From Qipengyuania sp. YIM B01966 (GTDB lineage: Bacteria > Pseudomonadota > Alphaproteobacteria > Sphingomonadales > Sphingomonadaceae): a DNA stretch of 64,000 bases. The position numbers were made by a program, and so were the translations under genes. This document shows, piece after piece, positions 23,972 to 61,794 of the stretch; position 1 is the stretch's first letter, and every line of letters starts with the position of its first letter. The notes below the pieces were generated by a model. That model was not told the origin of the DNA. It searched no databases and worked only from the letters and a program-made list of their open reading frames with translations. The stretch is from NCBI RefSeq assembly GCF_016461955.1, contig NZ_JADMNM010000004.1:1-64000 (forward strand), written 5' to 3'.

Positions 23972-25522
23972 GTGAGACGCGTGCGCTATGCTTATGGACT
24001 GACAACCGCGCTGCTGGTGGGCGGTGCGGCGCTTTCGCTGGTGACCGGCCATCCCGCCGGCGCTCAGGTGGCCCAGAATGACGGCAGCGAGATTGCCCGG
24101 GTGGTGCCGCGCGCCGGCGCGCCGGCGAGCTTCGCCGATCTGACCGCGCAATTGCAGCCGGCGGTGGTCAATATCTCGACCCGCCAGCGGATCGAGGTGC
24201 AGCAGAATCAGAACCCCTTTGCCGGCACGCCGTTCGAAGGGCTGTTCAACCAGCGTAACTCCCAACCCCAGCGCCCGCAGACGCAGGAAGCGCAATCGCT
24301 CGGCTCGGGCTTCATCATCTCGGCCGACGGGGTGGTGGTAACCAACAATCATGTTGTCACTGCCGGAGGGCGCGCGCGGATCGAAAGCATCACCGTGACC
24401 ATGCCCGACGGTACCGAATATCCGGCCGAACTGGTCGGCGCGGATGCCGCGTCCGACCTTGCGGTGCTGAAAATCTCGCGGCGCGAGCCATTCCCGTTCG
24501 TCAATTTCGGCGATTCCAGCCGGACCCGGGTGGGCGACTGGGTGATCGCTATTGGCAATCCCTTCGGCCTCGGCGGAACGGTGACCAGCGGGATCATCTC
24601 GGCGGTTTATCGCAATACCGGCATGGGCGGCGCCTATGACCGCTATCTCCAGACCGATGCGGCGATCAACCGCGGCAATTCGGGCGGCCCGATGTTCGAC
24701 ATGCAGGGCAATGTCATCGGTATCAACAATGCGATCTTCTCGCCGTCCGGCGGCAGCGTGGGCATCGGCTTTGCCATTCCGGCCGAAACCGCCGCTCCGA
24801 TCGTCGAGCGGCTCCGTCGCGGCCAGGCCATCGAGCGCGGCTATCTCGGCATCCGCATCGCGCCGCTGAACGAGGATCTCGCCGCATCGCTCGGCCTGCC
24901 GCGCAACCAGGGCGAATTCGTCCAGGCGGTCGAGCCCGGCCAGCCGGCCGAGCGCGCCGGCATTCGTGCGGGCGACGTGGTGCTGAGGGTCAACAACCAG
25001 CCGGTGACGCCCGAACAGTCGTTGTCGTTCCTGGTCGCCAATGTGCGGCCCGGCACCCGCATTCCGGTCGAACTGGTCCGTGACGGGCGACGGATGACCG
25101 TCACTGCCGAGGTCGCCCGTCGGCCGAGCGACGATGAATTGCGCCAGCAGCAGATGTTCAACGGTAACGAGGGCGACGATACGCCGCCGCCGGCCGAAGG
25201 CGACACCAACACGGTGATCGAAAGCGGGCTGGGCCTGAAAGTGCTGGCGCTGACTCCGCAGATTGCCGGGCAGCTTGGCGTCGGCCCCGAAACGCGCGGG
25301 GTGGTGATCGGCGCGGTGGACCAGAACTCCGATGCAGCGCGCAAGGGGCTTCAGCGCGGCGACATCATCCTCAGCGCCAATTACCGCGACGTGACCGACG
25401 CCGCGCAGCTTCAGGCGGTGATCGAGGAAGCCCGCCGCTCAGGCCGCGCGGCCGTGCTGCTGCGCGTGCAGCGGCGCGGGATGCCGGCGGCCTATGTCCC
25501 GGTGCGGCTCGGCAGCGGCTGA
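23972..25522 (+). CDS. degP: Do-family periplasmic serine endopeptidase (DegP/MucD-like)
   Basis: Envelope quality-control protease of 516 aa. It starts at GTG 23972 after GGAAAAGGA. The signal peptide is about 1-31 (LLVGGAALSLVTGHPAGAQ). The catalytic triad is His 127 (TNNHVVT), Asp 162 (SDLAVLK) and Ser 237 (RGNSGGPMF). Two PDZ domains follow, at about 280-375 (GYLGIRIAPL) and 420-510. The linker between them is acidic and Pro-rich. It sits downstream of hflKC and ends at a strong terminator. Confidence 0.93.
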   Translation: MRRVRYAYGLTTALLVGGAALSLVTGHPAGAQVAQNDGSEIARVVPRAGAPASFADLTAQLQPAVVNISTRQRIEVQQNQNPFAGTPFEGLFNQRNSQPQRPQTQEAQSLGSGFIISADGVVVTNNHVVTAGGRARIESITVTMPDGTEYPAELVGADAASDLAVLKISRREPFPFVNFGDSSRTRVGDWVIAIGNPFGLGGTVTSGIISAVYRNTGMGGAYDRYLQTDAAINRGNSGGPMFDMQGNVIGINNAIFSPSGGSVGIGFAIPAETAAPIVERLRRGQAIERGYLGIRIAPLNEDLAASLGLPRNQGEFVQAVEPGQPAERAGIRAGDVVLRVNNQPVTPEQSLSFLVANVRPGTRIPVELVRDGRRMTVTAEVARRPSDDELRQQQMFNGNEGDDTPPPAEGDTNTVIESGLGLKVLALTPQIAGQLGVGPETRGVVIGAVDQNSDAARKGLQRGDIILSANYRDVTDAAQLQAVIEEARRSGRAAVLLRVQRRGMPAAYVPVRLGSG

Positions 25523-47057: not shown

Positions 47058-47086
47058 TTGACATCGTGACGCTCTTCGGTTACATA
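47058..47086 (+). promoter_or_regulatory. Candidate sigma-70 promoter upstream of the GTA cluster
   Basis: TTGACA (47058-47063) matches the -35 consensus, followed by a 17-nt spacer and TACATA (47081-47086) as a weak -10. It lies between the palmitoyltransferase gene and the first GTA gene and points into the cluster. A terminator-like hairpin sits 30-60 nt downstream. Confidence 0.45.
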
Positions 47087-47116
47087 AGAGCAACATCGCG
47101 ATGGTGTGATTCTAAC

Positions 47117-47187: not shown

Positions 47188-47979
47188 ATGCCCGGCCTCA
47201 ACCTATCGCGTCCCGGTGCTCGCCGGCGGCGCAGCCCCGACGCGCCGAACCGGCGGATGGTCTTCACCGAAGCCCAGAAAAAGGCCGCCGGCGAAGGGCG
47301 CGTAAGCCGCAACTGGCGCACGGTTTTCCTGCTGGCGCTGGCCGAAACCTCGTGCGTCAAGCACGCCGCCAAGGCTGCCGGCGTCGCCCCGGCGCGTGCC
47401 TATTCAGGCCCGGCGCGAAGAGGCGGATTTCCGCGCCGACTGGCTCATCGCCCTGGGCGCGTGCCTATTCAGGCCCGGCGCGAAGAGGCGGATTTCCGCG
47501 CCGACTGGCTCATCGCCCTGGGCGCGTGCCTATTCAGGCCCGGCGCGAAGAGGCGGATTTCCGCGCCGACTGGCTCATCGCCCTGGGCGCGTGCCTATTC
47601 AGGCCCGGCGCGAAGAGGCGGATTTCCGCGCCGACTGGCTCATCGCCCTGGGCGCGTGCCTATTCAGGCCCGGCGCGAAGAGGCGGATTTCCGCGCCGAC
47701 TGGCTCATCGCCCTGGAAGAAGGCTACGCGAATCTTGAGCAGGAAATGCTGGCACATCTGCGCGGCACGCAGACCGACCACCGGATAGACACCGGCAGCG
47801 CGCTGCGCCTGCTCGCGCATCATTCCGCCACCGTGGCCCAGCAGCGCGCGGTTCCGCAGCAGGATGCTGATCCCGAAGAGCGCGCCGCGCGCACGCTGGA
47901 GGATTTCATCCGCCGCGTCCGCCCGGCTGCATTTGCCGCGCTTCCCCGGCCGGGAGGGGAGGATGGACCGGCGGCCTGA
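47188..47979 (+). CDS. GTA small terminase (gp1) with in-frame 65-bp repeat expansion
   Basis: First gene of the GTA cluster, 263 aa, ATG at 47188 after a near-perfect AAAGGAGGT. The N-terminal part (RNWRTVFLLALAETSCVKHAAKAAGV) is a helix-turn-helix as in TerS proteins, and the C-terminal part (ARREEADFRADWLIALEEGYANLEQEMLAHLRG) continues the usual TerS fold. Between them five 65-bp units insert a low-complexity basic peptide read in all three frames (YSGPARRGGF, VPIQARREEADF, ACLFRPGAKRR). Related TerS sequences would go straight from the AY of PARAY to QARREE. Function in DNA recognition may be altered. It overlaps the terminase large subunit start by 17 nt. Confidence 0.75.
   Translation: MPGLNLSRPGARRRRSPDAPNRRMVFTEAQKKAAGEGRVSRNWRTVFLLALAETSCVKHAAKAAGVAPARAYSGPARRGGFPRRLAHRPGRVPIQARREEADFRADWLIALGACLFRPGAKRRISAPTGSSPWARAYSGPARRGGFPRRLAHRPGRVPIQARREEADFRADWLIALEEGYANLEQEMLAHLRGTQTDHRIDTGSALRLLAHHSATVAQQRAVPQQDADPEERAARTLEDFIRRVRPAAFAALPRPGGEDGPAA
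47391..47716 (+). repeat. Five tandem 65-bp repeats inside the GTA small terminase gene
   Basis: The unit beginning GTGCCTATTCAGGCCCGGCG starts at 47396, 47461, 47526, 47591 and 47656. All copies are identical over 65 bp; the last ends at 47716. Because 65 is not a multiple of three, each unit shifts the reading frame, and all three frames of the unit are open. Only copy numbers of 2, 5 and so on keep the downstream terminase sequence in frame. Confidence 0.95.
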
Positions 47980-49300
47980 GGACGCCATCGTCCGCGAGCA
48001 GCTCGGTTCGCTGACCGAACCGGAACGCGACGCCCTGTCTGCGCAGCTGGCGGCGGAGAACTCCGACCCCGCGCTCATCCGCCTGTGGCGCTATCTCGCG
48101 CGGCCGGCGCAGCTGGCCCCGCCGGGGAACTGGCGGCTGTGGCTGGTGATGGCCGGGCGCGGCTTTGGCAAGACGCGGGCGGGCGCCGAATGGGTTCGCG
48201 CGCTGGCCCGCCGCAACCGCTTTGCCCGGATCGCGCTGGTCGGGGCCTCGCTCGCCGAAGCGCGCGCGGTGATGGTCGAGGGGGAAAGCGGCCTGCTCAA
48301 TCTCGGCCCGCCCGAACAGCGCCCGGTGTTCGAACCTTCGACCCGGCGGCTGCGCTGGCCCAATGGGGCGCTCGGCCTGCTTTACTCGGCGGCCGAGCCG
48401 GAAAGCCTGCGCGGGCCGCAGCACAGCCATGCCTGGTGCGACGAGATCGCCAAATGGGACATGGCCGGCGGAAGGGCCGATAATGCCTGGTCGAACCTCG
48501 TGCTCGGCCTGCGCCTTGGCCGGCAGCCGCAAGCCGTCTGCACCACCACGCCGCGCGCCGTGCCGCTGCTCCACCGCCTGATGGCGCGCGAGGGCACCGT
48601 GCTTTCGGGCGGCACCACGCATGACAATGCCGCCAATCTGCCGGGCGATTTCCTCGCCGCGGTGGAGGCCGATTTCGGCGGCACCGCGCTCGGCCGGCAG
48701 GAACTGGGCGGCGAATTGCTGACCGAGGTCGACGGCGCACTGTGGAGCCGCGCGCTGCTCGAACGCTGCCGCATGGGCGATCCCGAGGATGCGCCCGAAC
48801 GGGTGGTGATCGGCGTCGATCCGCCCGCTTCGGCGCGCGGCGATGAATGCGGCATCGTGGTCTGCGCGGCCTATCCCGGCGGGCACGCGGCGGTGCTGGC
48901 GGATTGTTCGATCCGCGGGGCCAGCCCCGAAGGCTGGGCGCGCGCGGTGGCCGAAGCCGCCTCGGCGTTCGGCGCCGACCGCGTAGTCGCCGAAGCCAAT
49001 CAGGGCGGCGAGATGGTCCGCGCGGTGCTGTCCGCCGCCGATCAGACGCTGCCGGTGCGGCTGGTCCATGCACGGCGCGGCAAGATCGCCCGCGCCGAGC
49101 CGGTCGCCGCGCTCTACGAAGCGGGGCGGGTGCGCCATGCCGGCCAGTTCGCCCGGCTGGAGGATCAGCTGTGCGGGATGATGGCCGGTGGCACCTATGA
49201 AGGCCCCGGCCGCAGCCCCGACCGCGCCGACGCGCTGGTCTGGGCGCTGACCGAGCTACTGCTCACCCGCCGCCGCGCCCCCAGCGTGCGGCGGATCTGA
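47963..49300 (+). CDS. GTA terminase large subunit (gp2)
   Basis: DNA-packaging motor ATPase and nuclease, 445 aa from ATG 47963 (MDRRPEDAIV). Walker A is WLVMAGRGFGKTRAGAEWV and Walker B is HAWCDEIAKW. The RNase H-like nuclease has IGVDPPASARGDECGI and later acidic residues, ending with SPDRADALVWALTEL. It overlaps the small terminase 3' end. This is the second gene of a compact cluster in RcGTA order. Confidence 0.93.
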   Translation: MDRRPEDAIVREQLGSLTEPERDALSAQLAAENSDPALIRLWRYLARPAQLAPPGNWRLWLVMAGRGFGKTRAGAEWVRALARRNRFARIALVGASLAEARAVMVEGESGLLNLGPPEQRPVFEPSTRRLRWPNGALGLLYSAAEPESLRGPQHSHAWCDEIAKWDMAGGRADNAWSNLVLGLRLGRQPQAVCTTTPRAVPLLHRLMAREGTVLSGGTTHDNAANLPGDFLAAVEADFGGTALGRQELGGELLTEVDGALWSRALLERCRMGDPEDAPERVVIGVDPPASARGDECGIVVCAAYPGGHAAVLADCSIRGASPEGWARAVAEAASAFGADRVVAEANQGGEMVRAVLSAADQTLPVRLVHARRGKIARAEPVAALYEAGRVRHAGQFARLEDQLCGMMAGGTYEGPGRSPDRADALVWALTELLLTRRRAPSVRRI

Positions 49301-49550: not shown

Positions 49551-50717
49551 ATGTCTTTCCTCGATAGTCTGGCCGCCGCCTTCAAGGGCGGGGGCGCGGC
49601 GGCGCGTGTGCCGTTGGCGCGGCCCTATATCTCGCCCTGGGCGGCCGCCTTTGCCGCCGCGCCGCAGGGGCGTGTGCCGTTCGATTACCAGACCGCGCTG
49701 CCCCGCGCCTTTGCCGAAAACCCGGTCGCCCAGCGGGCGGTGCGGATCGTCGCCGAGGGCGTGGGCAGCGCGCCGCTCGCCGCCAGCGATCCGGCGCTCG
49801 CCACGCTGGTGCAGGCGACCAGCGCCGGGCAGGCCCTGCTCGAAACGCTGGCCGCGCATCTGACGCTGCACGGCAATGGCTATGTCCAGATCGTCAAGGA
49901 CGCGGCTGGCCGCCCGGCGGAACTGGTCGCCTTGCGCCCCGAACGGGTCAGCGTGATCCCCGGCGATGATGGCTGGCCCGCCGCCTATGCCTATCGCGCA
50001 GGCGAGCGCACGCTGACCCTGCCGGTCGAGGATGAGCAGGGCTGGCCGGTGCTGATCCATCTGAAGGCGCTCGACCCGGCGTCCGATCATTATGGTGGCG
50101 GCTGCCTGTCGGCCGCGGCGCAGGCGGTGGCGGTTCATAACGAGGCCGCCCGCTGGAACCTCGCGCTGCTCGAAAACGCCGCCCGTCCGTCGGGCGCGCT
50201 GGTCCATGATAGCGGCGATGCCCCGCCATTGTCGTCCGATCAGTTCGAGCGGCTGAAGATCGAACTGGACGCTGCCTTTGCCGGTGCCGCCCATGCCGGG
50301 CGGCCGATGGTGCTCGACGGCGGGCTTCGCTGGCAGAGCATGGCGCTGACCCCGGCGGACATGGATTTCGCCACGCTGAAGGCTGCCGCCGCGCGCGACA
50401 TCGCGCTCGCTTTCGGGGTGCCGCCGATGCTGCTCGGCCTGCCGGGCGACAATACCTATGCCAATTACCGCGAGGCCAATCGCGCGCTGTGGCGGCTGAC
50501 GCTGCTGCCGCTGGCGGGCAAGATCCTGGGCGGCATCGCCGAAGGGCTGCGGCCGTGGTTCGCCGGCGCGACGCTCGGCGTTGATCTCGACCAGGTGCCG
50601 GCGCTCGCCGAAGATCGCGAGCGGTTGTGGGGCCAGGTCAGCGCGGCCGAGTTTCTGTCGCCAGCCGAGAAGCGCGCCCTGCTCGGCCTCGCCCCCGCAG
50701 AAGGGAATTCGCCATGA
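49551..50717 (+). CDS. GTA portal protein (gp3)
   Basis: HK97-type portal of 388 aa that forms the DNA entry ring at one capsid vertex. Typical blocks are ENPVAQRAVRIVAEGVGSAPL, HLTLHGNGYVQIVKDAAGRP, LIHLKALDPASDHYGGGCLS, and AFGVPPMLLGLPGDNTYANYREANRALW. It begins 250 nt after the terminase gene, following two repeat pairs, and overlaps the next gene by ATGA. Confidence 0.93.
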   Translation: MSFLDSLAAAFKGGGAAARVPLARPYISPWAAAFAAAPQGRVPFDYQTALPRAFAENPVAQRAVRIVAEGVGSAPLAASDPALATLVQATSAGQALLETLAAHLTLHGNGYVQIVKDAAGRPAELVALRPERVSVIPGDDGWPAAYAYRAGERTLTLPVEDEQGWPVLIHLKALDPASDHYGGGCLSAAAQAVAVHNEAARWNLALLENAARPSGALVHDSGDAPPLSSDQFERLKIELDAAFAGAAHAGRPMVLDGGLRWQSMALTPADMDFATLKAAAARDIALAFGVPPMLLGLPGDNTYANYREANRALWRLTLLPLAGKILGGIAEGLRPWFAGATLGVDLDQVPALAEDRERLWGQVSAAEFLSPAEKRALLGLAPAEGNSP

Positions 50718-51019
50718 CCCGCGACGAAAAGCTCGCCCGGCTGGTCGCCGATGCGGCCGAGGGGCGCTCGATCCCGGTGCTGCTGGGGCTGGTCGAGGAA
50801 GCCAGCGAACAGGGCGCCGAGCGCGCACTCCACCGGCTGGGCCTGTCGGACGACAATGCCAGCGCCGACATCGCCGATTTGCGCGAATTGCTGACCGCCT
50901 GGCGCACCGCCAAGACCAGCGCGTGGAAGGCGGTGGTTGACTGGCTGGTGCGCGGTGTGCTGGCGCTGCTGCTGGTCGGTATCGCGATGCGGATGGGCGT
51001 GGCGGAGCTGCTCAAATGA
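50714..51019 (+). CDS. Small GTA-cluster membrane protein (DUF6127-like)
   Basis: Protein of 101 aa starting at the ATGA overlap with the portal gene. The N-terminal two-thirds is soluble and helical (LARLVADAAEGRSIPVLLGLVEEASEQGAERAL), then one membrane helix (GVLALLLVGIAMRMGVAELL). It resembles the small protein encoded between portal and protease in sphingomonad GTA clusters, tentatively DUF6127. Its role in particle production is unknown; its position next to the protease suggests head assembly. Confidence 0.7.
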   Translation: MTRDEKLARLVADAAEGRSIPVLLGLVEEASEQGAERALHRLGLSDDNASADIADLRELLTAWRTAKTSAWKAVVDWLVRGVLALLLVGIAMRMGVAELLK

Positions 51020-51441
51020 GCGCGCCTGCCCCATTCCATTCAGCCCCGATCCGTTTCGCCGGCTATGCCGCATTGTTCGGCAGCGCCGATGCAGCGCGCG
51101 ACACGATCCGCCCCGGAGCCTTTGCCGCGACGCTGGCGGCGGTGCGCGATGGACCGTTGCCGCTGTGCTGGCAGCATAATCCGCGTCAGGTGATCGGCCG
51201 GGTCGAGCGCGCGTTCGAGGATGCACGCGGGCTGGCGGTGATCGGCCTGGTCGATCCGGCAGCCCGCGCCGCGCGGCTGCTGCTCGCCGGCGCGCTCGAC
51301 GGTCTCAGCTTCGGCTACCGCGCGCGGCATTGGCGTCGCTCGGCCACAGGGCGCGAGTTGATCGCGCTCGACCTCATCGAAGTCAGCCTGGTCGCCCAGC
51401 CGCTCCACCCAGACGCGCGGGTCCACTGGATCGCGCCCTAA
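51016..51441 (+). CDS. GTA prohead protease (gp4)
   Basis: HK97-family prohead protease of 141 aa that cleaves the capsid delta domain and scaffold. Family blocks are FAGYAALFGSADAARDTIRPGAF, the catalytic His in PLCWQHNPRQVIGRV, and LSFGYRARHWRRS followed by ELIALDLIEVSLVAQPLHPDA, with Ser in the EVSLV motif. It overlaps the membrane protein gene by ATGA. It is followed by a REP doublet before the capsid gene. Confidence 0.93.
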   Translation: MSAPAPFHSAPIRFAGYAALFGSADAARDTIRPGAFAATLAAVRDGPLPLCWQHNPRQVIGRVERAFEDARGLAVIGLVDPAARAARLLLAGALDGLSFGYRARHWRRSATGRELIALDLIEVSLVAQPLHPDARVHWIAP

Positions 51442-51442
51442 C

Positions 51443-51522
51443 CTGTCGCCCCGGACGTGATCCGGGGCCCAGCTCACCTTTTACCGCAAACAGCGGGACC
51501 CCGGGTCGAACCCGGGGTGACG
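51443..51522. repeat. REP doublet 2 in the GTA cluster
   Basis: CTGTCGCCCCGGACGTGATC... (51443-51474) and the inverse type GGGACCCCGGGTCGAACCCG...GACG (51493-51522) fill the gap between protease and capsid genes. The order of the two arms is reversed compared with the other two doublets. Confidence 0.8.
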
Positions 51523-51549
51523 ATTTCCCCCCAACCCGAAAGGCCCTTT

Positions 51550-52713
51550 ATGGATATTCCCGTTTCCACCCCCTCGCCCGTCACCGATCCGGCGGCGGCG
51601 AGCTTTGATATTGTCGCCCGGCAGGACAAGGCCGAGGCCGATATCACCGCGCTTTCGGCCGAGGTCGAGGAGGTCAAGACCCGCCTCGACCGCGTGGCCC
51701 GCGCCGCCACCCGCCCGGCCATCGGCGGGGCCGCCGGCGACATGGCCGCGCCCGAGGTCAAGGGCTTTGTCGACCGCTATTTGCGGCGCGGCGATACCTC
51801 GCTCTTCGAGGTGAAGGCGATGAACACGCTCGTCCCGGCCGAAGGCGGCTACGCCGTGCCGCGGCAGATCGACGCGCTGATCGCCCGCCAGCTCGTCGAG
51901 ATCAGCCCGATCCGCGCGCTCGCCCAAGTGGTCCAGACCGGCACTGCCGGCTACCGCAAGCTGGTCGCCCGCGGCGGCACCGCCAGCGGCTGGGTGTCGG
52001 AAACCGCACCGCGCCCCGAAACCGGCGCGCCCCTGTTTGCCGAAATCGCCCCGCCGACGGGCGAGCTCTACGCCAATCCGGCGGCGAGCCAGGCGATGCT
52101 CGATGATGCCGGGTTCGACCTCGAAAGCTGGCTGGCGAGCGAGATCGCGATGGAGTTCGCCCGCGCCGAAGGGGCCGCCTTCATCCACGGCAGCGGCATC
52201 AATCAGCCCGACGGCTTCCTCAACGCGCCCGCCACCGCGCAGGCGGACAGCGCGCGCGCCTTCGGCACGCTGCAATATGTCGGCAGCGGGGCGGCCGCCG
52301 GGTTCGGCAGCAACCCCGAAGCGCGGCTGATCGACCTTGTCCACACGCTCAAGGCCGGGCACCGGCAGGGGGCGAGCTGGGTGATGAATTCGGCGACGCT
52401 GGCCGAGGTCCGCAAACTCAAGACCGCCGACGGCGCATTCCTGTGGCAGCCGGGCCTGGTCGAAGGCCAGCCCGACCGGCTGCTCGGCTATCCGGTGGTC
52501 GAGGCCGAGGATATGCCCGACATCGCCGCCGGCGCCTATCCGGTGGCGTTCGGCAATTTCCGCCACGGCTATCTGATCGCGGAGCGCAGCGCGACGCAGA
52601 TCCTGCGCGATCCTTACACAAACAAGCCGTTCGTGCACTTCTACGCCACCCGCCGGGTGGGCGGGCAGGTGCTCGATTCCGCCGCGATCAAGCTGCTCAA
52701 GATCGAGGAATAA
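51550..52713 (+). CDS. GTA major capsid protein (gp5)
   Basis: HK97-fold capsid protein of 387 aa from ATG 51550 (MDIPVSTPSP). An N-terminal coiled delta region (about 20-60, QDKAEADITALSAEVEEVKTR) is followed by the HK97 core: SLFEVKAMNTLVPAEGGYAVP, SGWVSETAPRPETGAPLFAEI, FIHGSGINQPDGFLN and RVGGQVLDSAAIKLLKIE. It is followed by a strong terminator, which suits a protein needed in large amounts. Confidence 0.95.
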   Translation: MDIPVSTPSPVTDPAAASFDIVARQDKAEADITALSAEVEEVKTRLDRVARAATRPAIGGAAGDMAAPEVKGFVDRYLRRGDTSLFEVKAMNTLVPAEGGYAVPRQIDALIARQLVEISPIRALAQVVQTGTAGYRKLVARGGTASGWVSETAPRPETGAPLFAEIAPPTGELYANPAASQAMLDDAGFDLESWLASEIAMEFARAEGAAFIHGSGINQPDGFLNAPATAQADSARAFGTLQYVGSGAAAGFGSNPEARLIDLVHTLKAGHRQGASWVMNSATLAEVRKLKTADGAFLWQPGLVEGQPDRLLGYPVVEAEDMPDIAAGAYPVAFGNFRHGYLIAERSATQILRDPYTNKPFVHFYATRRVGGQVLDSAAIKLLKIEE

Positions 52714-52750
52714 CCGGGCCCGCCGGCCTGCTCTCGCCGGCTGCCTGACG

Positions 52751-52801
52751 CCGCGCCCCGCCGCCTGCCCCCTTCGGGCGGCGGGGCGCGGTTCTTTTTT
52801 G
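52751..52801 (+). terminator. Strong intrinsic terminator after the GTA capsid gene
   Basis: CCGCGCCCCGCCGCC (52751-52765) pairs perfectly over 15 bp with GGCGGCGGGGCGCGG (52777-52791), followed by TTCTTTTTT. It lies 38 nt after the capsid stop and 27 nt before the gp6 start. It would separate high capsid transcription from the downstream tail genes. Confidence 0.85.
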
Positions 52802-52827
52802 CCCCTCGCGCCAAGGATACCGCCTTC

Positions 52828-53373
52828 ATGGACCGCATGCCGATTTCCCCCACCGCGCCGCCCGCGCCTGCGTTGAGCCAGCTCAAGCACTGGCTGGCGA
52901 TCAGGAGCCCTGACGAGGACGCGCCGCTTGCCGCGCTCATCGCCGCCGCGCTCGAAGCGTGCGAGGCGTTCACCGGGCTGGTCCCGCTGATCGCCGATTA
53001 CGAGGCGCTGCTGCCCGCATCGGGCGCGTGGCAGCGCGTGCCGGCGCGGCCGGTCCACGCGATCACCAGGGTGGAAGCGATCCCGGCCGAAGGCGCCCAG
53101 CGGGTGCTGGCGGGCGAAGCCTACGAGATCGAGCTCGACGCCGATGGCAGCGGGCGGGTGCGGCTGCTGCGGCAGGGCGATGCCGGGCGGATCGCGGTCC
53201 GCTTCACCGCCGGCCTTGCGGGCGAATGGGCGGCGCTCCCCGCCAGCCTCGCCCATGGGATCATCCGCCACGCCGCCGCGCTCTATCGCCAGCGCGATGC
53301 GGGCGAGGACAGCCCTGCGCCCGCGCCGGCCATCGCCGCCTTGTGGCGGCCATACCGGCAGGTGCGGCTGTGA
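52828..53373 (+). CDS. GTA head-tail connector (gp6, adaptor)
   Basis: Protein of 181 aa of the phage gp6-like head-tail connector family, which joins portal to tail. Helical N-terminus (LSQLKHWLAIRSPDEDAPLAALIAAALEACEAFTG), a Pro-rich middle, beta segments with ITRVEAIPAEG, and helical LAHGIIRHAAALYRQRD near the end. Start ATG 52828 after AAGGA. It overlaps the next small gene by GTGA. Confidence 0.85.
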   Translation: MDRMPISPTAPPAPALSQLKHWLAIRSPDEDAPLAALIAAALEACEAFTGLVPLIADYEALLPASGAWQRVPARPVHAITRVEAIPAEGAQRVLAGEAYEIELDADGSGRVRLLRQGDAGRIAVRFTAGLAGEWAALPASLAHGIIRHAAALYRQRDAGEDSPAPAPAIAALWRPYRQVRL

Positions 53374-53540
53374 TCGCCGCCCGGCTGATCCCCGCGCCAG
53401 AACGGCTGACGGGCGCGCTGGCCCGCAAGGCCGCGCGGCTTGCCGCCGCGCACGCCGCGCAGGCCCTTGCCCAAGCGCGCGATGACCCGGCGCGCTGGCG
53501 GCAGGCCGACCTCCTCTGGCCGCTCTTCACGAAAGGCTGA
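53370..53540 (+). CDS. Short protein at the gp7 (stopper) position of the GTA cluster
   Basis: A 56-aa protein from GTG 53370, overlapping gp6 by GTGA. It is helical and Ala/Arg-rich (LTGALARKAARLAAAHAAQALAQ, then WRQADLLWPLFTKG). RcGTA encodes a longer head-closure stopper (gp7) here. This may be a reduced or divergent form, or an unrelated small protein. Because both neighbours overlap or abut it, it is very likely translated. Confidence 0.6.
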   Translation: MIAARLIPAPERLTGALARKAARLAAAHAAQALAQARDDPARWRQADLLWPLFTKG

Positions 53541-53545
53541 CCCCG

Positions 53546-53938
53546 ATGGAACTGCCCTTGCGCGCAGCCCTGCTGCGCTGGCTGGCAACCGGCCCCACGC
53601 CGCTCACCACGCTCAACCTGCTGGCCGAGGAAGCGCCGCTCGCCGCCAGCCCGCCCTGGCTCGGCATTGTCGCCAGCGCGGCGGTCGAATGGGGCGCGAA
53701 GGAGGCGCCGGGGCGCGAAATCCGCGTCGCGCTCGAACTGCATACGCGTGGCGACGATCCGGAAGGCGATGGCGCGCTGGTGCGGGCGATCGACACACGG
53801 ATCGAGGATTTTCCGCGCCGCCACGATGGCTGGCAGGTCGCCTCGATCGCCTTCCTGCGCTCACGCGCCGAACGCCGCCCGCGCAATCTGCGCGCGATGC
53901 TGATGGAATACCGCTTCCGCTGCCTCGCGCTCGCCTAG
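53546..53938 (+). CDS. GTA DUF3168 protein (gp8, tail terminator type)
   Basis: Protein of 130 aa matching DUF3168, the tail-terminator family: LPLRAALLRWLATGPTPLTTLNL, EIRVALELHTRGDDPEGDGALVRAIDTRIEDFP and VASIAFLRSRAERRPRNLRAMLMEYRFR. In RcGTA gp8 caps the tail tube below the stopper. It is 5 nt downstream of the gp7-position gene and is followed by REP doublet 3. Confidence 0.85.
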   Translation: MELPLRAALLRWLATGPTPLTTLNLLAEEAPLAASPPWLGIVASAAVEWGAKEAPGREIRVALELHTRGDDPEGDGALVRAIDTRIEDFPRRHDGWQVASIAFLRSRAERRPRNLRAMLMEYRFRCLALA

Positions 53939-53960
53939 ACCGACACGGTTGAGCTGAACC

Positions 53961-54032
53961 AGCTGGACCCCGGGTCAAGCCCCGGGGTGACAGCAAAACC
54001 CTGTCGCCCCGGACCTGATCCGGGGCCCGGCT
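53961..54032. repeat. REP doublet 3 in the GTA cluster
   Basis: AGCTGGACCCCGGGTCAAGC...GTGACA (53961-53992) and the inverse CTGTCGCCCCGGACCTGATC...CCGGCT (54001-54032) fill the 127-nt gap before the tail-tube gene. The inverted copy agrees with the first at roughly 26 of 32 positions. Confidence 0.8.
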
Positions 54033-54065
54033 ACCTTGCGGAAAATCCCCACGAAAGGACACACC

Positions 54066-54473
54066 ATGACCCCCCAGAAAGGCGCCGCCTTCCTGCTCAA
54101 GATCGGCGACGGCGCACAGCCGCCGGCCTACGACACTGTTGCCGGCCTCCGGACCACGCAGATGGCGATCAATGGCGACCCGGTGGTCGTCACGCACAAG
54201 CAATCGGGCGGCTGGCGCGCGCTGCTGTCGGGCGCGGGGACGCGCTCGGTTTCGGTCAGCGCGGCGGGCATCTTCCTCGGCAGCGCGGCGGAAGACCGCG
54301 TGCGCGGCCATGCGCTCGCCGGCACCATCGCCGAATACGAACTGAGCTTCGAGGATGGCGCGAAGATGCGCGGGCCCTTCCTCGTCCAGCGGCTCGACTA
54401 TTCCGGCGATTTCAATGCCGAGCGGACCTATACGCTGCAGCTCGAAAGTGCCGGGCCGGTGGTGCCCGTATGA
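54066..54473 (+). CDS. GTA major tail protein (gp9, tail tube)
   Basis: Tail-tube subunit of 135 aa from ATG 54066 (MTPQKGAAFLLKIGDGAQPPAY). The fold shows repeated beta strands (TTQMAINGDPVVVTHKQSGGW, RSVSVSAAGIFLGSAAEDRV, YELSFEDGAKMRGPFLVQRLDYSGDF) and ends with YTLQLESAGPVV. GAKMRGPFLV is typical of phage major tail proteins in GTAs. It overlaps gp10 by ATGA. Confidence 0.9.
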   Translation: MTPQKGAAFLLKIGDGAQPPAYDTVAGLRTTQMAINGDPVVVTHKQSGGWRALLSGAGTRSVSVSAAGIFLGSAAEDRVRGHALAGTIAEYELSFEDGAKMRGPFLVQRLDYSGDFNAERTYTLQLESAGPVVPV

Positions 54474-54793
54474 GCGCGCCTGCCGATAGCTTCGCCAACC
54501 CGCATCGCGGCGAGGCCAGCCTGATCGTCGCCGGGGCCCCGTGCACCTTGCGCCCGAGCTTCACCGCGCTGGTCGCGGCCGAAGAAGAGCTGGGGCCGCT
54601 GTTCGCGCTGGTCGAACGCGCCGGGGCCGGGCAGCTCAAACTGGCCGAGATCGCCGCGCTGTTCTTTCATTGCCAGCACGGCGCCGGCCACACACGCGAA
54701 GCTGTGGGCGAGGCCGTGCTTGCCGCAGGCCTCGCCGCCTGCACCGCGCCGCTGCGCGTTCTGCTCGGCCAGATCCTACGCGGGAACGCGTGA
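54470..54793 (+). CDS. GTA gp10-family protein
   Basis: Protein of 107 aa with the gene transfer agent gp10 block: NPHRGEASLIVAGAPCTLRPSFTALVAAEEELG, then AEIAALFFHCQHG and GLAACTAPLRVLLGQIL. Its start overlaps gp9 and its stop overlaps the next gene (GTGA). In related systems this family acts with the tail-assembly chaperone in tape-measure handling. Confidence 0.88.
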   Translation: MSAPADSFANPHRGEASLIVAGAPCTLRPSFTALVAAEEELGPLFALVERAGAGQLKLAEIAALFFHCQHGAGHTREAVGEAVLAAGLAACTAPLRVLLGQILRGNA

Positions 54794-54990
54794 CAGACGG
54801 CAGTTTCGGCGCCGAAGCCGCGCGGATGGCGGGCCTTGCCGCGCGCGCTTTGGGCTGGGCGCCCGCCACCTTCTGGGCCGCCACCCCGGCCGAACTCGCC
54901 GCCGCGCTGGCGCCCGCCGACCCCACCCCGCCGGCGCTGACCCGCGCCGAACTCGCCCGCCTGATGGAGCATGATGATGACCATGACTGA
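54790..54990 (+). CDS. GTA phage tail assembly chaperone (gp10.1)
   Basis: Small protein of 66 aa from GTG 54790 overlapping gp10 by GTGA. The motif ALGWAPATFWAATPAELAAALAP with a C-terminal LTRAELARLMEHDDDHD matches the small chaperone (TAC, rcc01693-like) that precedes the tape measure gene in GTAs. Its 3' end lies inside the start of the tape measure gene. Confidence 0.85.
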   Translation: MTDGSFGAEAARMAGLAARALGWAPATFWAATPAELAAALAPADPTPPALTRAELARLMEHDDDHD

Positions 54991-55579
54991 CGACACGCTC
55001 GAACCGCTGCTGGTCGAGGTGCGCGCCGGCACCAATGGCTTTGCCGCCGACATGGCACGGATGCGCAGCGCGCTCGACACGACGCTGGTGGACGGCTTTG
55101 CCGGGGCCGGCGCGGTGCTCGAACGCGGGCTGCTGGCGGCGCTCAAGAAAGGCAGCATCGGGTTCGAGGATCTGGGGCGGATGGCGCTGCAGATCATCGA
55201 CCGCATCGCCAGCCACGCGATCCAGGCCGGGCTCGAAACGCTGCTCGGGGGTCTCGGTGGCGGCGGGAAAGGCAGCGGGGATGGAGGGGGTATCGGCGGC
55301 CTGCTGGCCGGCGGGTTCGGTGCGCTGCTCGGCCTGCCGGGCCGCGCCACGGGCGGGCCGGTTGCGCCCGGTCGTGGCTACCTGGTGGGCGAGCGCGGAC
55401 CCGAACTGTTCGTCCCGACCAGCGCCGGCCGGGTCGAGGTCGCCGCCCCGTCCCGCCGCAGCGATGTGCGCGTGGCGATCAACCTGGCCGCCCCGCGCGA
55501 CACCACCACGCCGACCGCGCTCGCCCGCTCGAGCCGGCAGGTGGCGAGCGCGGTCCGCCGCGCGCTGATGGAGCATTGA
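54971..55579 (+). CDS. GTA tail tape measure protein (gp11)
   Basis: Protein of 202 aa, among the shortest tape measures, matching the short GTA tail. The start is one of three consecutive or nearby ATGs from 54971. The N-terminal helical part (LVEVRAGTNGFAADMARMRSALD) is followed by a Gly-rich low-complexity stretch (LLGGLGGGGKGSGDGGGIGGLL) and a conserved C-terminus (PVAPGRGYLVGERGPELFVP, then ARSSRQVASAVRRALMEH). Length controls tail length in phages. Confidence 0.88.
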   Translation: MMMTMTDDTLEPLLVEVRAGTNGFAADMARMRSALDTTLVDGFAGAGAVLERGLLAALKKGSIGFEDLGRMALQIIDRIASHAIQAGLETLLGGLGGGGKGSGDGGGIGGLLAGGFGALLGLPGRATGGPVAPGRGYLVGERGPELFVPTSAGRVEVAAPSRRSDVRVAINLAAPRDTTTPTALARSSRQVASAVRRALMEH

Positions 55580-55583
55580 GCCG

Positions 55584-57923
55584 ATGACCTACTGGCTTTG
55601 CCGCGAACGCCGCGGCCAACATGGCGACTGGCTCCAGCGGTTCGACCCGCGCTTCTGGACGGTCAATTTCCCCCGCCCGATGATGGCCTCGGTCGTCACC
55701 ACCGGGCCCGATGCCTTGCGGGTGGACTGCGAGTTTCACCATGCCGGCGAGCTCGCCGGGCTGATCTGGGACAGCGTGGACCGGCTGGACCACCCGCTGC
55801 TGGCCTATGCCACCGACCGCAATTATGCGCGCACCACCCTGCGTTTCCGCTGGCGATCAGGCGGGCTGGTGCCGCTCGACGCGCCGCACGGGCCGACGCT
55901 GACGATCGAGGGCCAGGATGCCGCCGGCAACGCCCGCAGCTGGTACGTCCGGCTGTGGAATTACGCGCAAGGCACGCCCGAAGATGCGGTGATCACGCTG
56001 CCCTTCTCAGGCCTGGCCGACGGCTTTGCCCCCGGCGGCGAGGCGGTGCACCCGTCGCGGATTGCGCGGATGTTCATCTCGCTGTGCCCGCCCGGTTATG
56101 TCGAAGGCAGCACCGCACCGCTCACGACACGCGCCGATGGCTGGGCGGAATTGAGCGACATAAGCTGCGACGGCGAACGCGCGATGCTGGCGCTGGGCGA
56201 TGTGCTGCTACCGCCGCATGGCGAACAGCTCGCCACCGCCTATGACGATTGCTTCAACCAGACCCCGGCGCGGCTGCTGCGGCAGGTGCGCGGCCTCGGC
56301 TATCGCGGGCGGATCGTCCATTATCTCGGGATGAGCCATTTCTTCCGGCTGGTGCCGGGCGAAGGGCGATTGCTGGCGGCGGGCGACGGCGCGCTGGCCG
56401 GCCCGGCGCTCGCATGGCACCGCGCGTTCTTCGCCGAATGCGCCGCGCGCGGGTTCGAGGCCATCGCCTCGCTCTCCTACGAACTGCTCGCCCAGCATTG
56501 CCCCGATGCCTGGCAGCAGCGCGCCGCCGATGGCACGCCCGCGCGCACCGGGTGGGAACCGCCCTCCGCGCTGCCGAGCCCGGCCCATGCGGGCGCGATG
56601 GACTGGCTGAAACAGGTCGCCGCACGTTTCGTCGCCTTGATCGAGGAGGCTGGCCTGCCGGTCCGTTTCCAGATCGGCGAGCCGTGGTGGTGGGTCACCG
56701 CCGATGGCCATATCTGCCTTTACGATGCGGCGGCCAAGGCGGCGCTGGGCGGCAATCCGCGGGTGATTGCCGATATGCGCGCGCCGCAAGGGCCGCAGGC
56801 CCGCGCCCTGCTCGGCATGGCCGGCAGCCTGCTCGCTGCTTCCACCGCCGGCCTGACCACAGCTATCCGCGAGGCCGCCAGTGGCCCGGCCGAAGTGCTG
56901 CTGCTGGCCTTCACCCCGACTGTGCTCGACCCCGCCATGCCCGACCTGAAGCGTGCCAATCTGCCGCTCGAATGGGCGCACCCCGCCTTCGACCGGCTGC
57001 AGCTGGAAGATTACGACTGGCTGACGGCGGGCAAGCAGGCGCTGCGCCGAGCGGCGCTGGCCGAGGTCGATGCCCGACTCGGCTACCCGCCGGAAAAACA
57101 GGATTACTTCGCCGGTTTCGTCCTCCGCGGCGAGGATGCTGAAACCTACTGGCCGCGGATCGACGCCGCGCTGGACGAAGCGCGTGCGCGCGGCATCGGC
57201 CAGCGTTTCGTCTGGGCGCTGCCGCAGATCGCGCGCGATGGCTACACCCGCCTCGCGCCCCCGCCACAGGAGAGCGCGGTGCAACCCTTCGACGATGTCC
57301 CCTATCCGCTCGCGCTGGGCCGCGACACCGCGGTCAGCCCCGAATTCTCGACCATGGTCGCCACCACCGCTTCGGGCCATGAGCGGCGCAACGCGCTGTG
57401 GTCGGATGCGCGGCTGCGTTTCGATGTCGGCCCCGGCATCCGCGCCGAAAGCGAGCTGGGTACGCTGATCGCCTTCTTCCGCGCCCGCCGCGGACCGGCA
57501 CGCGGGTTCCGGCTCCGCGACCCGTTCGACCATTCCTCGGCCGGGATGACCGGCGTGCCGGGCGCAACCGATCAGCTGCTCGGCACGGGCGACGGTGCGC
57601 GGGCCGATTTCCCACTGGTCAAACGCTATGGCGAAGGCGGCGAGCCGCAGATCCGCCCGATCACCCGCCCCGCCCCTGGCAGCGTGCTGGTGGCGGTGGA
57701 TGGCATCGCGACGACCGCCTTCGCGCTGCGCGAGGGCGGAATCATCGCCCTCGCCGCCGCGCCGCCCGCCGGCGCCGAAGTGACCGCCGGTTTCCTGTTC
57801 GACGTGCCCGTGCGCTTTGCCGAAGACCGGCTGGATGTCGCCGGCGTCAATTTCGCCGCCGGCGAGGCGCCTTCGGTGCCGCTGGTCGAATTGCGCGAAA
57901 CCACCGCCGAGCCTGCGCCATGA
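55584..57923 (+). CDS. GTA distal tail protein (gp12-type DUF2460) with large N-terminal hydrolase-like extension
   Basis: Protein of 779 aa. The last about 210 residues are the DUF2460/gp12 distal-tail domain (DVPYPLALGRDTAVSPEFSTMVA, AFFRARRGPARGFRLRDPFDHSS, QLLGTGDGARADFPLVKRYG). The first about 565 residues are not part of standard gp12. They contain a beta-rich N-terminus and then a region that reads like a TIM-barrel glycoside hydrolase (HYLGMSHFFRLVPGEG, FFAECAARGFEAIASLSYEL, RFQIGEPWWWV). The fusion is in one frame with no internal stop or start signal. It begins 4 nt after the tape measure gene. Confidence 0.85.
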   Translation: MTYWLCRERRGQHGDWLQRFDPRFWTVNFPRPMMASVVTTGPDALRVDCEFHHAGELAGLIWDSVDRLDHPLLAYATDRNYARTTLRFRWRSGGLVPLDAPHGPTLTIEGQDAAGNARSWYVRLWNYAQGTPEDAVITLPFSGLADGFAPGGEAVHPSRIARMFISLCPPGYVEGSTAPLTTRADGWAELSDISCDGERAMLALGDVLLPPHGEQLATAYDDCFNQTPARLLRQVRGLGYRGRIVHYLGMSHFFRLVPGEGRLLAAGDGALAGPALAWHRAFFAECAARGFEAIASLSYELLAQHCPDAWQQRAADGTPARTGWEPPSALPSPAHAGAMDWLKQVAARFVALIEEAGLPVRFQIGEPWWWVTADGHICLYDAAAKAALGGNPRVIADMRAPQGPQARALLGMAGSLLAASTAGLTTAIREAASGPAEVLLLAFTPTVLDPAMPDLKRANLPLEWAHPAFDRLQLEDYDWLTAGKQALRRAALAEVDARLGYPPEKQDYFAGFVLRGEDAETYWPRIDAALDEARARGIGQRFVWALPQIARDGYTRLAPPPQESAVQPFDDVPYPLALGRDTAVSPEFSTMVATTASGHERRNALWSDARLRFDVGPGIRAESELGTLIAFFRARRGPARGFRLRDPFDHSSAGMTGVPGATDQLLGTGDGARADFPLVKRYGEGGEPQIRPITRPAPGSVLVAVDGIATTAFALREGGIIALAAAPPAGAEVTAGFLFDVPVRFAEDRLDVAGVNFAAGEAPSVPLVELRETTAEPAP

Positions 57924-58738
57924 GCCGCGTGTTCCTGCGCCGCGAGCTGGAAGGGGTGGCGACTTTCTGGCGCGTCCACCGCCGCGACGGGGTGACGCTG
58001 GGCTTCACCAGCCACGACCGCGATCTGGCGTTCGGCGGCGTCACCCACCGCGCCGCGCCTGGCATGGTTCCGGCCGCGATCCGCCGCACCGCCGACTTCA
58101 CCGATGACAGCGCCGAGGCCGACGGCATTCTCGCGCATGACAGCATCAGCGAGGGCGACCTTGCCGCCGGCCGCTTCGACCAGGCGGCGATCGAAATGGG
58201 CGCGGTCGATTGGGAAACGGGGGAGCACGCGGTGCTCTATACCGGCACGCTCGGCGCCATCACGACGCAGAGCGGCGGTTTCTCGGCCGAATTGCGTTCG
58301 GCCAAGGCGGCGCTGGAGCGCGACCCGGTCCCGCGCACCAGCCCGACCTGCCGCGCCGAGTTCTGCGGGCCGGGCTGCAACCTGTCTCCCGCGCGGTTCA
58401 CCCGCGAGGCGGTGTTGGCCGAGGTCGAGCCGACGAGCGGTGGGCTGATCTTCGCTGGAATCGACCCCGCCCTCTACGCCGGCGGCGAGCTTCGCTGGCT
58501 CGACGGCCCGGAGTGCGGCCGCACCTTCGGCATTTGCGGCGTGGCAGGCGCGGCGCTGCTGATCGACGACGGCGACACGCCACCCCCGTCCGGCACTCGC
58601 GCGCTGCTGCGCGAAGGCTGCGACCGCACAATCGCCACCTGCGCCGCGCGGTTCGGCAATGCGCTCAACTTTCAGGGCGAGCCGTTCCTGCCCGGCAACG
58701 ATCTTCTGGCACGCTATCCGCAAGGGGGCGGGGCATGA
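57920..58738 (+). CDS. GTA hub protein (gp13, DUF2163)
   Basis: Protein of 272 aa at the baseplate hub. The N-terminal DUF2163 region (LRRELEGVATFWRVHRRDGVTLGFTSHDRD) and the C-terminal block RTIATCAARFGNALNFQGEPFLPG with CRAEFCGPGCNL match GTA gp13 (DUF2163 plus BR0599-like domain). Cysteines in CRAEFCGPGC and CDRTIATC may bind an iron-sulfur cluster, as reported for the RcGTA hub. Start ATG 57920 overlaps gp12 by ATGA. Confidence 0.92.
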   Translation: MSRVFLRRELEGVATFWRVHRRDGVTLGFTSHDRDLAFGGVTHRAAPGMVPAAIRRTADFTDDSAEADGILAHDSISEGDLAAGRFDQAAIEMGAVDWETGEHAVLYTGTLGAITTQSGGFSAELRSAKAALERDPVPRTSPTCRAEFCGPGCNLSPARFTREAVLAEVEPTSGGLIFAGIDPALYAGGELRWLDGPECGRTFGICGVAGAALLIDDGDTPPPSGTRALLREGCDRTIATCAARFGNALNFQGEPFLPGNDLLARYPQGGGA

Positions 58739-59157
58739 CCGGCGCGGCCATCGCTGCCGCTGCCGCCGCGCTGGTCGGCACGCCCTACCGCGCCGAAGGC
58801 CGCGCGCCGGGCCACGGGCTCGATTGTCTCGGTGTGGTGCTGGCCGCGCTGCGGGGCGCGGGCATTGCCGCCGCCGAGATGCCGTCGCCGCCGGGCTGGC
58901 GGCAGACCGCGATCGACGAGTGGCTGGGCCGCGCCGCGCAGGTCGGCCTGCGCCCGGCCAGCGGGGCGCCAATCCCTGGCGACGTGCTGCTCGTCGCCAG
59001 TGGCCCGGGGCAGCATCATTTGCTGATCGTCGGCCCGGCGGGCGACAGCTGCATCAGCGCCCATGCCGGGCTCGGCCAGGTGGTGGCGAGCCCGCTGCCG
59101 GCCCCCGCCACGCTCCGGCGCCACTGGCGCATGGCAGACAACAAGGATTCCGGCTGA
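58735..59157 (+). CDS. GTA cell wall peptidase (gp14, NlpC/P60 type)
   Basis: NlpC/P60-like cysteine peptidase of 140 aa that is thought to cut peptidoglycan during DNA delivery. Catalytic Cys in HGLDCLGVVLAAL (about residue 31) and His in GPGQHHLLIVG are visible. Start ATG 58735 overlaps gp13 by ATGA and the stop shares a base with the gp15 start (TGATG). Confidence 0.92.
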   Translation: MTGAAIAAAAAALVGTPYRAEGRAPGHGLDCLGVVLAALRGAGIAAAEMPSPPGWRQTAIDEWLGRAAQVGLRPASGAPIPGDVLLVASGPGQHHLLIVGPAGDSCISAHAGLGQVVASPLPAPATLRRHWRMADNKDSG

Positions 59158-61328
59158 TGGCTACTCTGGTACTCACCGCGCTCGGCACCGCGCTGGGCGG
59201 CCCGATCGGTGGTGCGCTCGGCGCAATGGTCGGCGGGCGGATCGACGGCAAGCTGATGGGGACCCGGTACGGCCCGCGGGTCAAGGAGCTGGCGGTCACC
59301 ACCTCCAGCTACGGCGCGCCGATCCCGCTCCATTTCGGGCGAATGCGCGCCGCCGGGACGATCATCTGGGCGACCGACCTTGTCGAACACCGCGAGAAGA
59401 GCGGTGGCAAGGGCCGGCCCGCCACCGCAACCTACAGCTACAGCGCCTCCTTCGCGGTGGCGCTGTCGGCGCGGCCGATCCGCCGGGTCGGGCGCATCTG
59501 GGCCGACGGCAATCTGCTGCGCGGCGCGGCGGGCGATCTCAAGGTCGGCGGCGCGTTGCGCGTCCATGACGGGCATGGCGACCAGCCGCCCGATCCGCTG
59601 CTGGCGGCTGCACTGGGGGCGCAATGCCCGGCCTTTCGCGGCCGCGCCTACGCGGTGTTCGAGGATCTGCAACTCGCCGATTTCGGCAACCGCATCCCCG
59701 CATTGACCTTCGAGATCATTGCCGATGAAGGCGAGGTGGCGCTGGGCGATCTGATGGGCGCGCCAAATAGCGAGCAGCCCTTTGCGGGTCTCGCCGGCTA
59801 CGCGCTCGAACAGGGCGCGCTGGGTGGCGAACTGGCAGCCATCAACCAACTCTATCCGCTCACCTGCCTCAGCGAAGCGGGCGCTCTGGCCGTGCAGGCG
59901 CGCATCGAACCGGCCAATGCGGAGGCGGCGCTGGCGCCGGTGTTGGGCGAACCGGCGGTGTCGGGCGAGCCGGAGGATTTCGGTGGCCCCGCCGGCCAGC
60001 GCAGCCAGCGCGACAGCGGGCCGCGCGCATGGATCGAAAGCCTGCGCTATTATGACCCGGCCCGCGATTACCAGCCCGGCGCGCAGCGGCCCGGCGGCCG
60101 GCCCGGCATGGGTGCCGGGCGGCGGCTCGATCTGCCCGGGGTTATTGAAGCCGGTGTTGCAAGGCAGCTGGTCGAGGGTGCCGCGCGGCGAGCGGAGCAG
60201 GACGGTCCGGTCGTTTCGTGGCGGGTGGCGGAACTCGACCCCTCGCTTGCCCCCGGCCGCGTCGTGCGGCTGCCCGACCGATCCGGTCTGTGGCGGATCG
60301 AGGAATGGGAATGGCGCACGCCTGGGGTCGAATTGACCCTCAGCCCCCTGTCCGGTCCGCGCGCCACACCGGTTGCGGCCGGGCCCGGCGACCCCGGCGC
60401 CATCGTTGCGCCGCTCGATTCCGCAACCGGCCCGACACTGCTTCGCGCCTACCGCCTGCCACCCCAAGGCAGCACCGTGCCTGGGCTCGCGATCGCCGCG
60501 TCGTCGGCGCAGGCAGGTTGGCGCGGCGCGGCACTGTATCAGGTCGAAAGCGACGCGCTGCTCCCCGTGGCGGCGAGCGGTCGCAGGCGCGCAGCGCTCG
60601 GCGCGCTTGTCAGTCCGCTGCCCCCGTCACCTGCAATGCTGTTCGAAGCTGCCGGCGAGATTATCTTGCAGCTGGTTTCCGACGAGTTCATCCTGTCTTC
60701 CGCCAGCCGAGCCGCGCTTGATACCGGGCACAACCTCGCGGCGATCGGCGCGGAACTGGTGCAGTTCGCGCAGGCCCAGCGCACCGCGCCGGGGTTGTGG
60801 CGATTGACAGGCCTGCTGCGCGGTCGCGGTGGAACCGAACCGGACAGCCGCCGCGGACACATTGTGGGCGCGCCGTTTACACTGCTCGACGAGGCCGTAA
60901 CCACGCTCCTGCCGAGCGAAAGCGGGATGGCGCCTGGCCGCATTGCCGCCATTGGCCTGGCCGATGAGGCACCGGTGATTTGCGACATCGAAGAGCTTGG
61001 GACGGGCCCGTTGCCGCCCGCGCCGGTGCATCTGCGGTTCGGCGGTTCCGCCGCGACGGGACTGACCCTCTCATGGGTGCGCCGCGCACGCGGATGTTGG
61101 CAATGGCCTGACCGCGTCGAAGTCCCCCTGGTCGAAGAGCAGGAACGGTATCTGGTCGGTGCCGGCACTGCCGACCGACCGGAGGCGCAATGGCTCACAA
61201 CCCAGCCGCATCTGCTGCTCGCCCCCGGATCGTTGCCGGCAGAGGTGCAGGGACCGCTGTGGGTGCGCCAGATCGGCACGCACGGATTGTCACTACCGGC
61301 ATTTTTCCCCGACCTGCCCCTGAACTGA
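59157..61328 (+). CDS. GTA tail fibre / megatron protein (gp15), short form without TIM-barrel domain
   Basis: Protein of 723 aa from ATG 59157 (MATLVLTALGTALGGPIGGALGAM). It has the N-terminal GTA gp15 block: VGGRIDGKLMGTRYGPRVKELAVTT-like sequence, YGAPIPLHFGRMRAAGTIIWATDLVEH, then a phage-tail-3-like core (RDYQPGAQRPGG, VEGAARRAEQDGPVVSWRVAELDPSLAPGRVVRL) and a C-terminal receptor-like part. RcGTA gp15 is about 1300 aa and contains a GTA TIM-barrel domain; I see none here, while gp12 carries one. Adsorption specificity is probable. Confidence 0.88.
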   Translation: MATLVLTALGTALGGPIGGALGAMVGGRIDGKLMGTRYGPRVKELAVTTSSYGAPIPLHFGRMRAAGTIIWATDLVEHREKSGGKGRPATATYSYSASFAVALSARPIRRVGRIWADGNLLRGAAGDLKVGGALRVHDGHGDQPPDPLLAAALGAQCPAFRGRAYAVFEDLQLADFGNRIPALTFEIIADEGEVALGDLMGAPNSEQPFAGLAGYALEQGALGGELAAINQLYPLTCLSEAGALAVQARIEPANAEAALAPVLGEPAVSGEPEDFGGPAGQRSQRDSGPRAWIESLRYYDPARDYQPGAQRPGGRPGMGAGRRLDLPGVIEAGVARQLVEGAARRAEQDGPVVSWRVAELDPSLAPGRVVRLPDRSGLWRIEEWEWRTPGVELTLSPLSGPRATPVAAGPGDPGAIVAPLDSATGPTLLRAYRLPPQGSTVPGLAIAASSAQAGWRGAALYQVESDALLPVAASGRRRAALGALVSPLPPSPAMLFEAAGEIILQLVSDEFILSSASRAALDTGHNLAAIGAELVQFAQAQRTAPGLWRLTGLLRGRGGTEPDSRRGHIVGAPFTLLDEAVTTLLPSESGMAPGRIAAIGLADEAPVICDIEELGTGPLPPAPVHLRFGGSAATGLTLSWVRRARGCWQWPDRVEVPLVEEQERYLVGAGTADRPEAQWLTTQPHLLLAPGSLPAEVQGPLWVRQIGTHGLSLPAFFPDLPLN

Positions 61329-61341
61329 CAAAGGAATTGTC

Positions 61342-61794
61342 ATGAGTGATCTGAACTGCGCCACTGAGCGCACCGCGCGCGTCGGCTTCCCGTTGCTCCA
61401 TGTTGGGCAGGCCCAGAAAGAAGTGACGATCAACGAAGCCTTCGCCTTGGCCGATGCCCTGGCTCAACCGCGCGTAAACGGTATAGCCGACACCCCGCCC
61501 GCTTCGCCTGCCGAGGGCGAGTGCTGGATAATTGCGGCCGGGCCGAGCGGTGCGTGGACCGGCCGTGCAGCGTCGCTCGCGATCTTTCAGGCCGGTACAT
61601 GGATTTTTGGCTCCGCGTTCGAAGGCCTCACTGTGTTCGATGCGGGTGCCGGCGTTCGCAGGATCTATCGCGACGGCGCGTGGCAAACCGTCCCGCTCCC
61701 GAGCAATGCGACGGGCGGCGCCGTGGTCGATCAGCAGGCGCGTGACCAAATTGCCACACTGTGCGCGGCACTGCGCATGGCAGGCGTTTTATAG
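61342..61794 (+). CDS. DUF2793 domain protein at the end of the GTA cluster
   Basis: Protein of 150 aa (MSDLNCATERTARVGFPLLHVGQAQKEVTINEAFALADAL). This matches DUF2793, common after gp15 in alphaproteobacterial GTA or prophage clusters, with the VGQAQKEVTINEA block and CWIIAAGPSGAWTG region. It lies 13 nt after gp15. A tail-fibre-related role is plausible but unproven. Confidence 0.88.
   Translation: MSDLNCATERTARVGFPLLHVGQAQKEVTINEAFALADALAQPRVNGIADTPPASPAEGECWIIAAGPSGAWTGRAASLAIFQAGTWIFGSAFEGLTVFDAGAGVRRIYRDGAWQTVPLPSNATGGAVVDQQARDQIATLCAALRMAGVL

Follow-up and report, generated by a model that had tools for sequence, protein, structure and literature searches.

A private 65-bp tandem array carrying an extra base in the small terminase gene of a gene transfer agent-type cluster of Qipengyuania sp. 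YIM B01966

The terS locus and its gene cluster

The window is the whole stretch of DNA that was analysed, i.e. positions 1-64,000 (64,000 nt, forward strand) of contig NZ_JADMNM010000004.1 of Qipengyuania sp. YIM B01966 (assembly GCF_016461955.1). The host belongs to the family containing Erythrobacter, Novosphingobium and Qipengyuania. The gene terS, encoding the small terminase (TerS) of a gene transfer agent (GTA), is open on the + strand from the ATG at 47188 to the TGA at 47979 (263 aa, including an insert of 87 aa). It is assigned according to its position directly upstream of terL and to its sequence relation to TerS: the insert-free sequence matches phrog_4044 (E 5e-7), and its identity to TerS of other genera of the family is 31-45%, the genus being represented by the source genome alone in this comparison.

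A promoter-like element, TTGACATCGTnACGCTnTT...GAACATCGCGAT (also given as TTGACATCGTnACGC...GAACATCGCGAT), is located upstream of terS (47058-47112, + strand). A strict pattern recovered it from the loci of 42 of 80 relatives, nearly always a short distance upstream of terS; it is strongly conserved across sphingomonad GTA clusters. Downstream, all on the + strand, are found terL (47963-49300; Terminase_6N/6C), which overlaps terS by 17 nt and has its own Shine-Dalgarno-like GGGAGGGGAGG, the portal protein gene (49551-50717; Phage_portal, E 5e-68) and the rest of the cluster (50714-61794), encoding a DUF6127 protein, a prohead protease, the capsid, an adaptor, tail proteins, a hub and an Rcc01698-like protein, all intact. 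Apart from terS, every gene can be aligned without interruption to the clusters of three relatives, and relatives also share the upstream element; the cluster as a whole is therefore not in decay. Its synteny in terS, terL, portal, protease, capsid, tail, hub and Rcc01698-like genes identifies it as a cluster of the RcGTA type, a domesticated phage that would pack host DNA into particles at random. The Rcc01698-like domain occurs only once in the genome, which indicates one such cluster. The 779-aa protein encoded by 55584-57923 carries a non-contractile tail sheath TIM barrel (PF23844/PF23845) fused to a DUF2460 domain; no large tape measure was seen in the cluster, only a tape-measure-like protein of 202 aa before the 779-aa protein.

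The 65-bp array, its reading frame and the assembly

The five identical 65-bp units that the preliminary description had placed within the small terminase gene were found again both by TRF and by a direct string check of the window. The units, identical to the letter, occupy 47391-47715 (+ strand); identity with a period of 65 extends to 47716, 1 nt past the fifth unit. No second location of the unit was found in the 2.44-Mb genome. Each unit has 65 nt instead of the 64 nt expected: one extra T (TATTCAGG; TAT-T-CAGG), located at 47403/47404 in copy 1, is repeated in all five copies. The unit-to-unit join reads CTG/GGCGCG (junction sequence CCCTGGGCGCG). The single-stranded unit shows no unusual folding (z about -1), and hairpin-driven amplification was rejected on this ground. 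Also rejected were a role of the array as pac site or iterons, since the array is found in no relative and RcGTA has no known packaging start site (PMC7947584), and a 63-nt slip on the imperfect repeat TCGCCCyGG combined with two separate +1 changes, both of which would need to spread to every copy.

The unit length is not a multiple of three, so that the copy number sets the reading frame, as in phase-variable genes. When units were deleted or added in silico, the native C-terminus was restored with 2, 5 or 8 copies only, among 0-8 copies; 0, 1, 3, 4, 6 or 7 copies lead to alternative short C-termini. This agrees with the earlier arithmetic, according to which five copies, or two, keep the frame and 1, 3, 4 or 6 lose it. 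A single copy with the extra T would lead to a stop after 96 aa, ahead of the C-terminal half, and would leave about 225 nt untranslated before terL. With five copies, the net insertion relative to the TerS of relatives (47404-47664, + strand; 261 nt, 87 aa) is in frame, and the C-terminal half is read again, because 1 + 4x65 = 261 is a multiple of three. A random copy number would be in frame one time in three; the in-frame sum thus favours selection over accident only about threefold, and the frame alone is weak evidence for selection. It had also been pointed out that the unit is free of stops in all three frames. This is true but unremarkable, since 44% of the 65-mers from the terS-portal region (68% G+C), when joined in three copies, likewise contain no stop in any of the three frames. 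The feature that is not cheaply explained is the array together with the shared +1 base in a conserved helix.

The assembly is a short-read-style draft of 43 contigs, many of them of 233-1400 bp, and the perfect 325-bp array is longer than ordinary short reads. A loop-traversal error made during short-read scaffolding or gap-filling could thus account for the array or, if not for the array, for its five copies; this rival is serious, and is considered unlikely. Five single-N joins were found in the 1.09 Mb of the genome's sequence examined for them. Exact duplications of 161, 129 and 78 bp stand on either side of three of these joins; at a fourth, the two flanks are near-duplicates over about 85 bp. 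The 78-bp duplication and its N split carA, encoding the carbamoyl-phosphate synthase small subunit (L269:4767-4923; about 24767-24923 of G000:C22), and are a scaffold-joining artefact mimicking a tandem duplication. (The joins besides that in carA are located at L216:2223-2481, L206:4680-5003, L250:1511-1682 and L266:7556; duplicated sequence lies on both sides of the first three of them.) By contrast, the terS array has no N and has five copies rather than two, its junction and its extra T are not derivable from the native sequence, and no other N-less, frame-breaking array within a gene was found in 1.16 Mb sampled. In general, an assembler could walk such a loop only if reads held the junction; two or more copies, and likely at least two to three, are therefore probably real. 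The array itself is probably real as well, and the copy number of five may be an estimate and is not secure. Elsewhere in the genome, a 100-bp unit is repeated about six times at L223:14365-14970 (95% alike, apparently intergenic).

TerS of relatives and predicted structure

The TerS profile alignment includes 190 loci: 29 from other genomes of the family or order, 80 from GTDB contigs, 80 from IMG/VR contigs and a distant TerS paralogue (L038) of the window's own genome. An insert at the boundary between Y72 and Q73 was found neither in the 189 relatives nor in L038. The 47-column TerS core is without insert in 187 of the 190 aligned loci; in the other three, all distant, two residues are inserted a few positions past this boundary. 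The alignment to terminase genes of relatives, proposed in the preliminary description as a check, thus indicates that the extra base is derived, and a stable unrelated insertion at the site was found in none of the 189. From this comparison, the T at 47403/47404 is read as a derived +1. No tandem array like that of the window was found in the terS of the 189 relatives, whereas a repeat maintained by selection would be expected to be kept at the locus. Since the relatives have neither insert nor array, the ancestral state would be a single 64-nt stretch reading ...ARAYQARREEADFRADWLIALEEGY.... A strong TerS match was found in 41 of the 70 family genomes drawn; only the match of the source genome starts late, at model position 63, which is the break point. 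Two exact-pattern scans of viral contigs, among which records very near the source genome are possibly absent, found neither the array nor DNA of the same species. The array junction is, on the sequences compared, private to the source genome.

Outside the insert, the residues conserved in relatives are all kept, including the invariant W43, F47, L48, Y72, F, W, EGY and LE. The AlphaFold model of the window's TerS was compared with that of one relative. In this relative (L042, mean pLDDT 89), the helices of the helix-turn-helix (HTH) domain span residues 43-54, 57-64 and 68-77 and are followed by a long helix (79-105). In the window's TerS, the N-terminal HTH part (W43 to Y72; 47314-47403, + strand) has its recognition helix cut after Y72, the third helix being restricted to 68-72 versus 68-77 in L042, and pLDDT is under 50 at residues 79-91 and 116-153. 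The C-terminal half (Q160-A263; 47665-47976, + strand), which contains EEGYANLEQEMLAHLR, is in frame according to the alignment and corresponds to a putative oligomerisation/TerL-binding region made of long helices; helices 166-191, 202-226 and 229-251 are intact, mostly with pLDDT above 75. The continuous HTH and coiled-coil fold of relatives was not recovered, and a fold search of the model against the PDB gave nothing significant. The 87-aa insert is thus predicted to split the HTH recognition helix and to leave the coiled-coil/C-terminal half intact. With its recognition helix cut, the protein probably differs from a normal TerS.

A cut in this helix is also what would be found if terS had recently been inactivated by the +1, if the array had grown by neutral slippage and if the in-frame sum were accidental, the 263-aa product, with its recognition helix split by 87 residues, being non-working. 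The chances of being in frame (1/3) and stop-free (0.44) leave room for such an accident, and the perfect copies indicate a recent event. Moreover, the GTA terS of Qipengyuania algicida (L078) has an in-frame TAG (L078:3088-3090) within the codons for the HTH recognition helix, the conserved Tyr of that helix following two residues later. This nonsense codon indicates that loss of TerS does occur, though rarely: it is the only one in the aligned set, and lesions of the TerS core are rare in the family. This rarity, the retention of all residues conserved in relatives outside the insert and the intact remainder of the cluster argue against a neutral pseudogene, which is a serious rival and is considered somewhat improbable.

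Frameshift, amplification and known systems

The explanation preferred here, held tentatively and falling a little short of probable, is that terS first suffered a +1 frameshift and that a tandem amplification private to this genome then returned the C-terminal half to frame. A T would have been inserted in the recognition-helix codons of the GTA terS, and the surrounding 65 bp would then have been tandemly amplified, to about five physical copies. The C-terminal coiled-coil/TerL-binding half, whose end overlaps the start of terL, would be back in frame; 2, 5 or 8 copies would serve equally. The protein would consist of the HTH N-terminus, a largely disordered tether of 87 residues and the intact C-terminal half of TerS; it would still recruit TerL, and selection would have favoured the in-frame state. 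Five identical units, a net +261 nt in frame and 189 relatives that are single-copy without insert are in favour of this explanation. Against it are the in-frame chance of 1/3, the stop-free chance of 0.44 and a draft containing artificial tandem duplications. The earlier suggestion of a +1 insertion rescued by duplication thus holds as to the gap-free single-copy TerS of relatives, the intact cluster and the in-frame sum; selection for the rescue is unproven.

The first gene of the RcGTA cluster of Rhodobacter capsulatus (gp1, rcc01682) is the closest term of comparison for the protein. Like terS here, it is immediately upstream of terL in an RcGTA-type cluster, in which the window also has an Rcc01698-like protein, and the same helical organisation, with a coiled coil and a C-terminal TerL-binding part, is expected. 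The difference is that gp1 has no HTH, whereas sphingomonad TerS has one, here split by an 87-aa insert of frame-shifted repeats. Although it has no HTH, RcGTA gp1 is required for packaging and has TerL as an interaction partner (PMC6854486); TerS may thus remain functional without an HTH. TerS is nevertheless sensitive to some damage, since g1 without helix 1 or helix 3 fails to complement (PMC6854486). By analogy, a working tethered protein is plausible.

A copy-number switch for DNA packaging had also been suggested, i.e. an evolved contingency locus in which slippage among the 65-bp repeats would switch GTA packaging on (2, 5 or 8 copies) or off in a minority of cells. Nothing beyond the arithmetic speaks for it: the unit length is not a multiple of three and the unit is open in every frame. 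The open frames are expected from composition, the in-frame state would arise by chance one time in three, the insert interrupts a conserved helix and none of the 189 relatives has the array; such a switch is thus very improbable. To our knowledge, no contingency locus controlling a gene transfer agent has been described. Frame-shifting repeat tracts are an established mechanism of phase variation elsewhere (PMC5320596). The tracts of Neisseria opa and pilC also have units not divisible by three whose copy number sets the frame, but these units are short and their strain-to-strain variation has been shown, whereas terS has one long unit in one genome. Reversible tandem duplications in capsule genes of Streptococcus pneumoniae (Waite et al. 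2001, 2003, as cited in PMC4243769) are likewise direct duplications inside an ORF that can alter gene function and revert; there, the duplication inactivates an intact gene, whereas the terS array overlies a +1 lesion and restores the frame. Under the frameshift and amplification preferred here, perfect repeats should gain and lose copies, giving reversible frame changes that would resemble a switch but arise as a by-product and not as an evolved one. The mutation is probably recent and private to the source genome, and probably not an evolved on/off switch.

Should the array prove to be an assembly error, it would caution against this draft and against deriving frame arithmetic from arrays assembled from short reads. 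Should it be real and the protein functional, the locus would illustrate neatly, in nature, how tandem amplification can offset a frameshift, and the DNA-binding head of sphingomonad GTA TerS could be uncoupled from the TerL-recruiting half, which would accord with the RcGTA TerS lacking that domain.

Some loci of Erythrobacter/Qipengyuania type (L067, L133, L139, L078, L011 and L012) encode a TerS that apparently has two tandem HTH-like domains.
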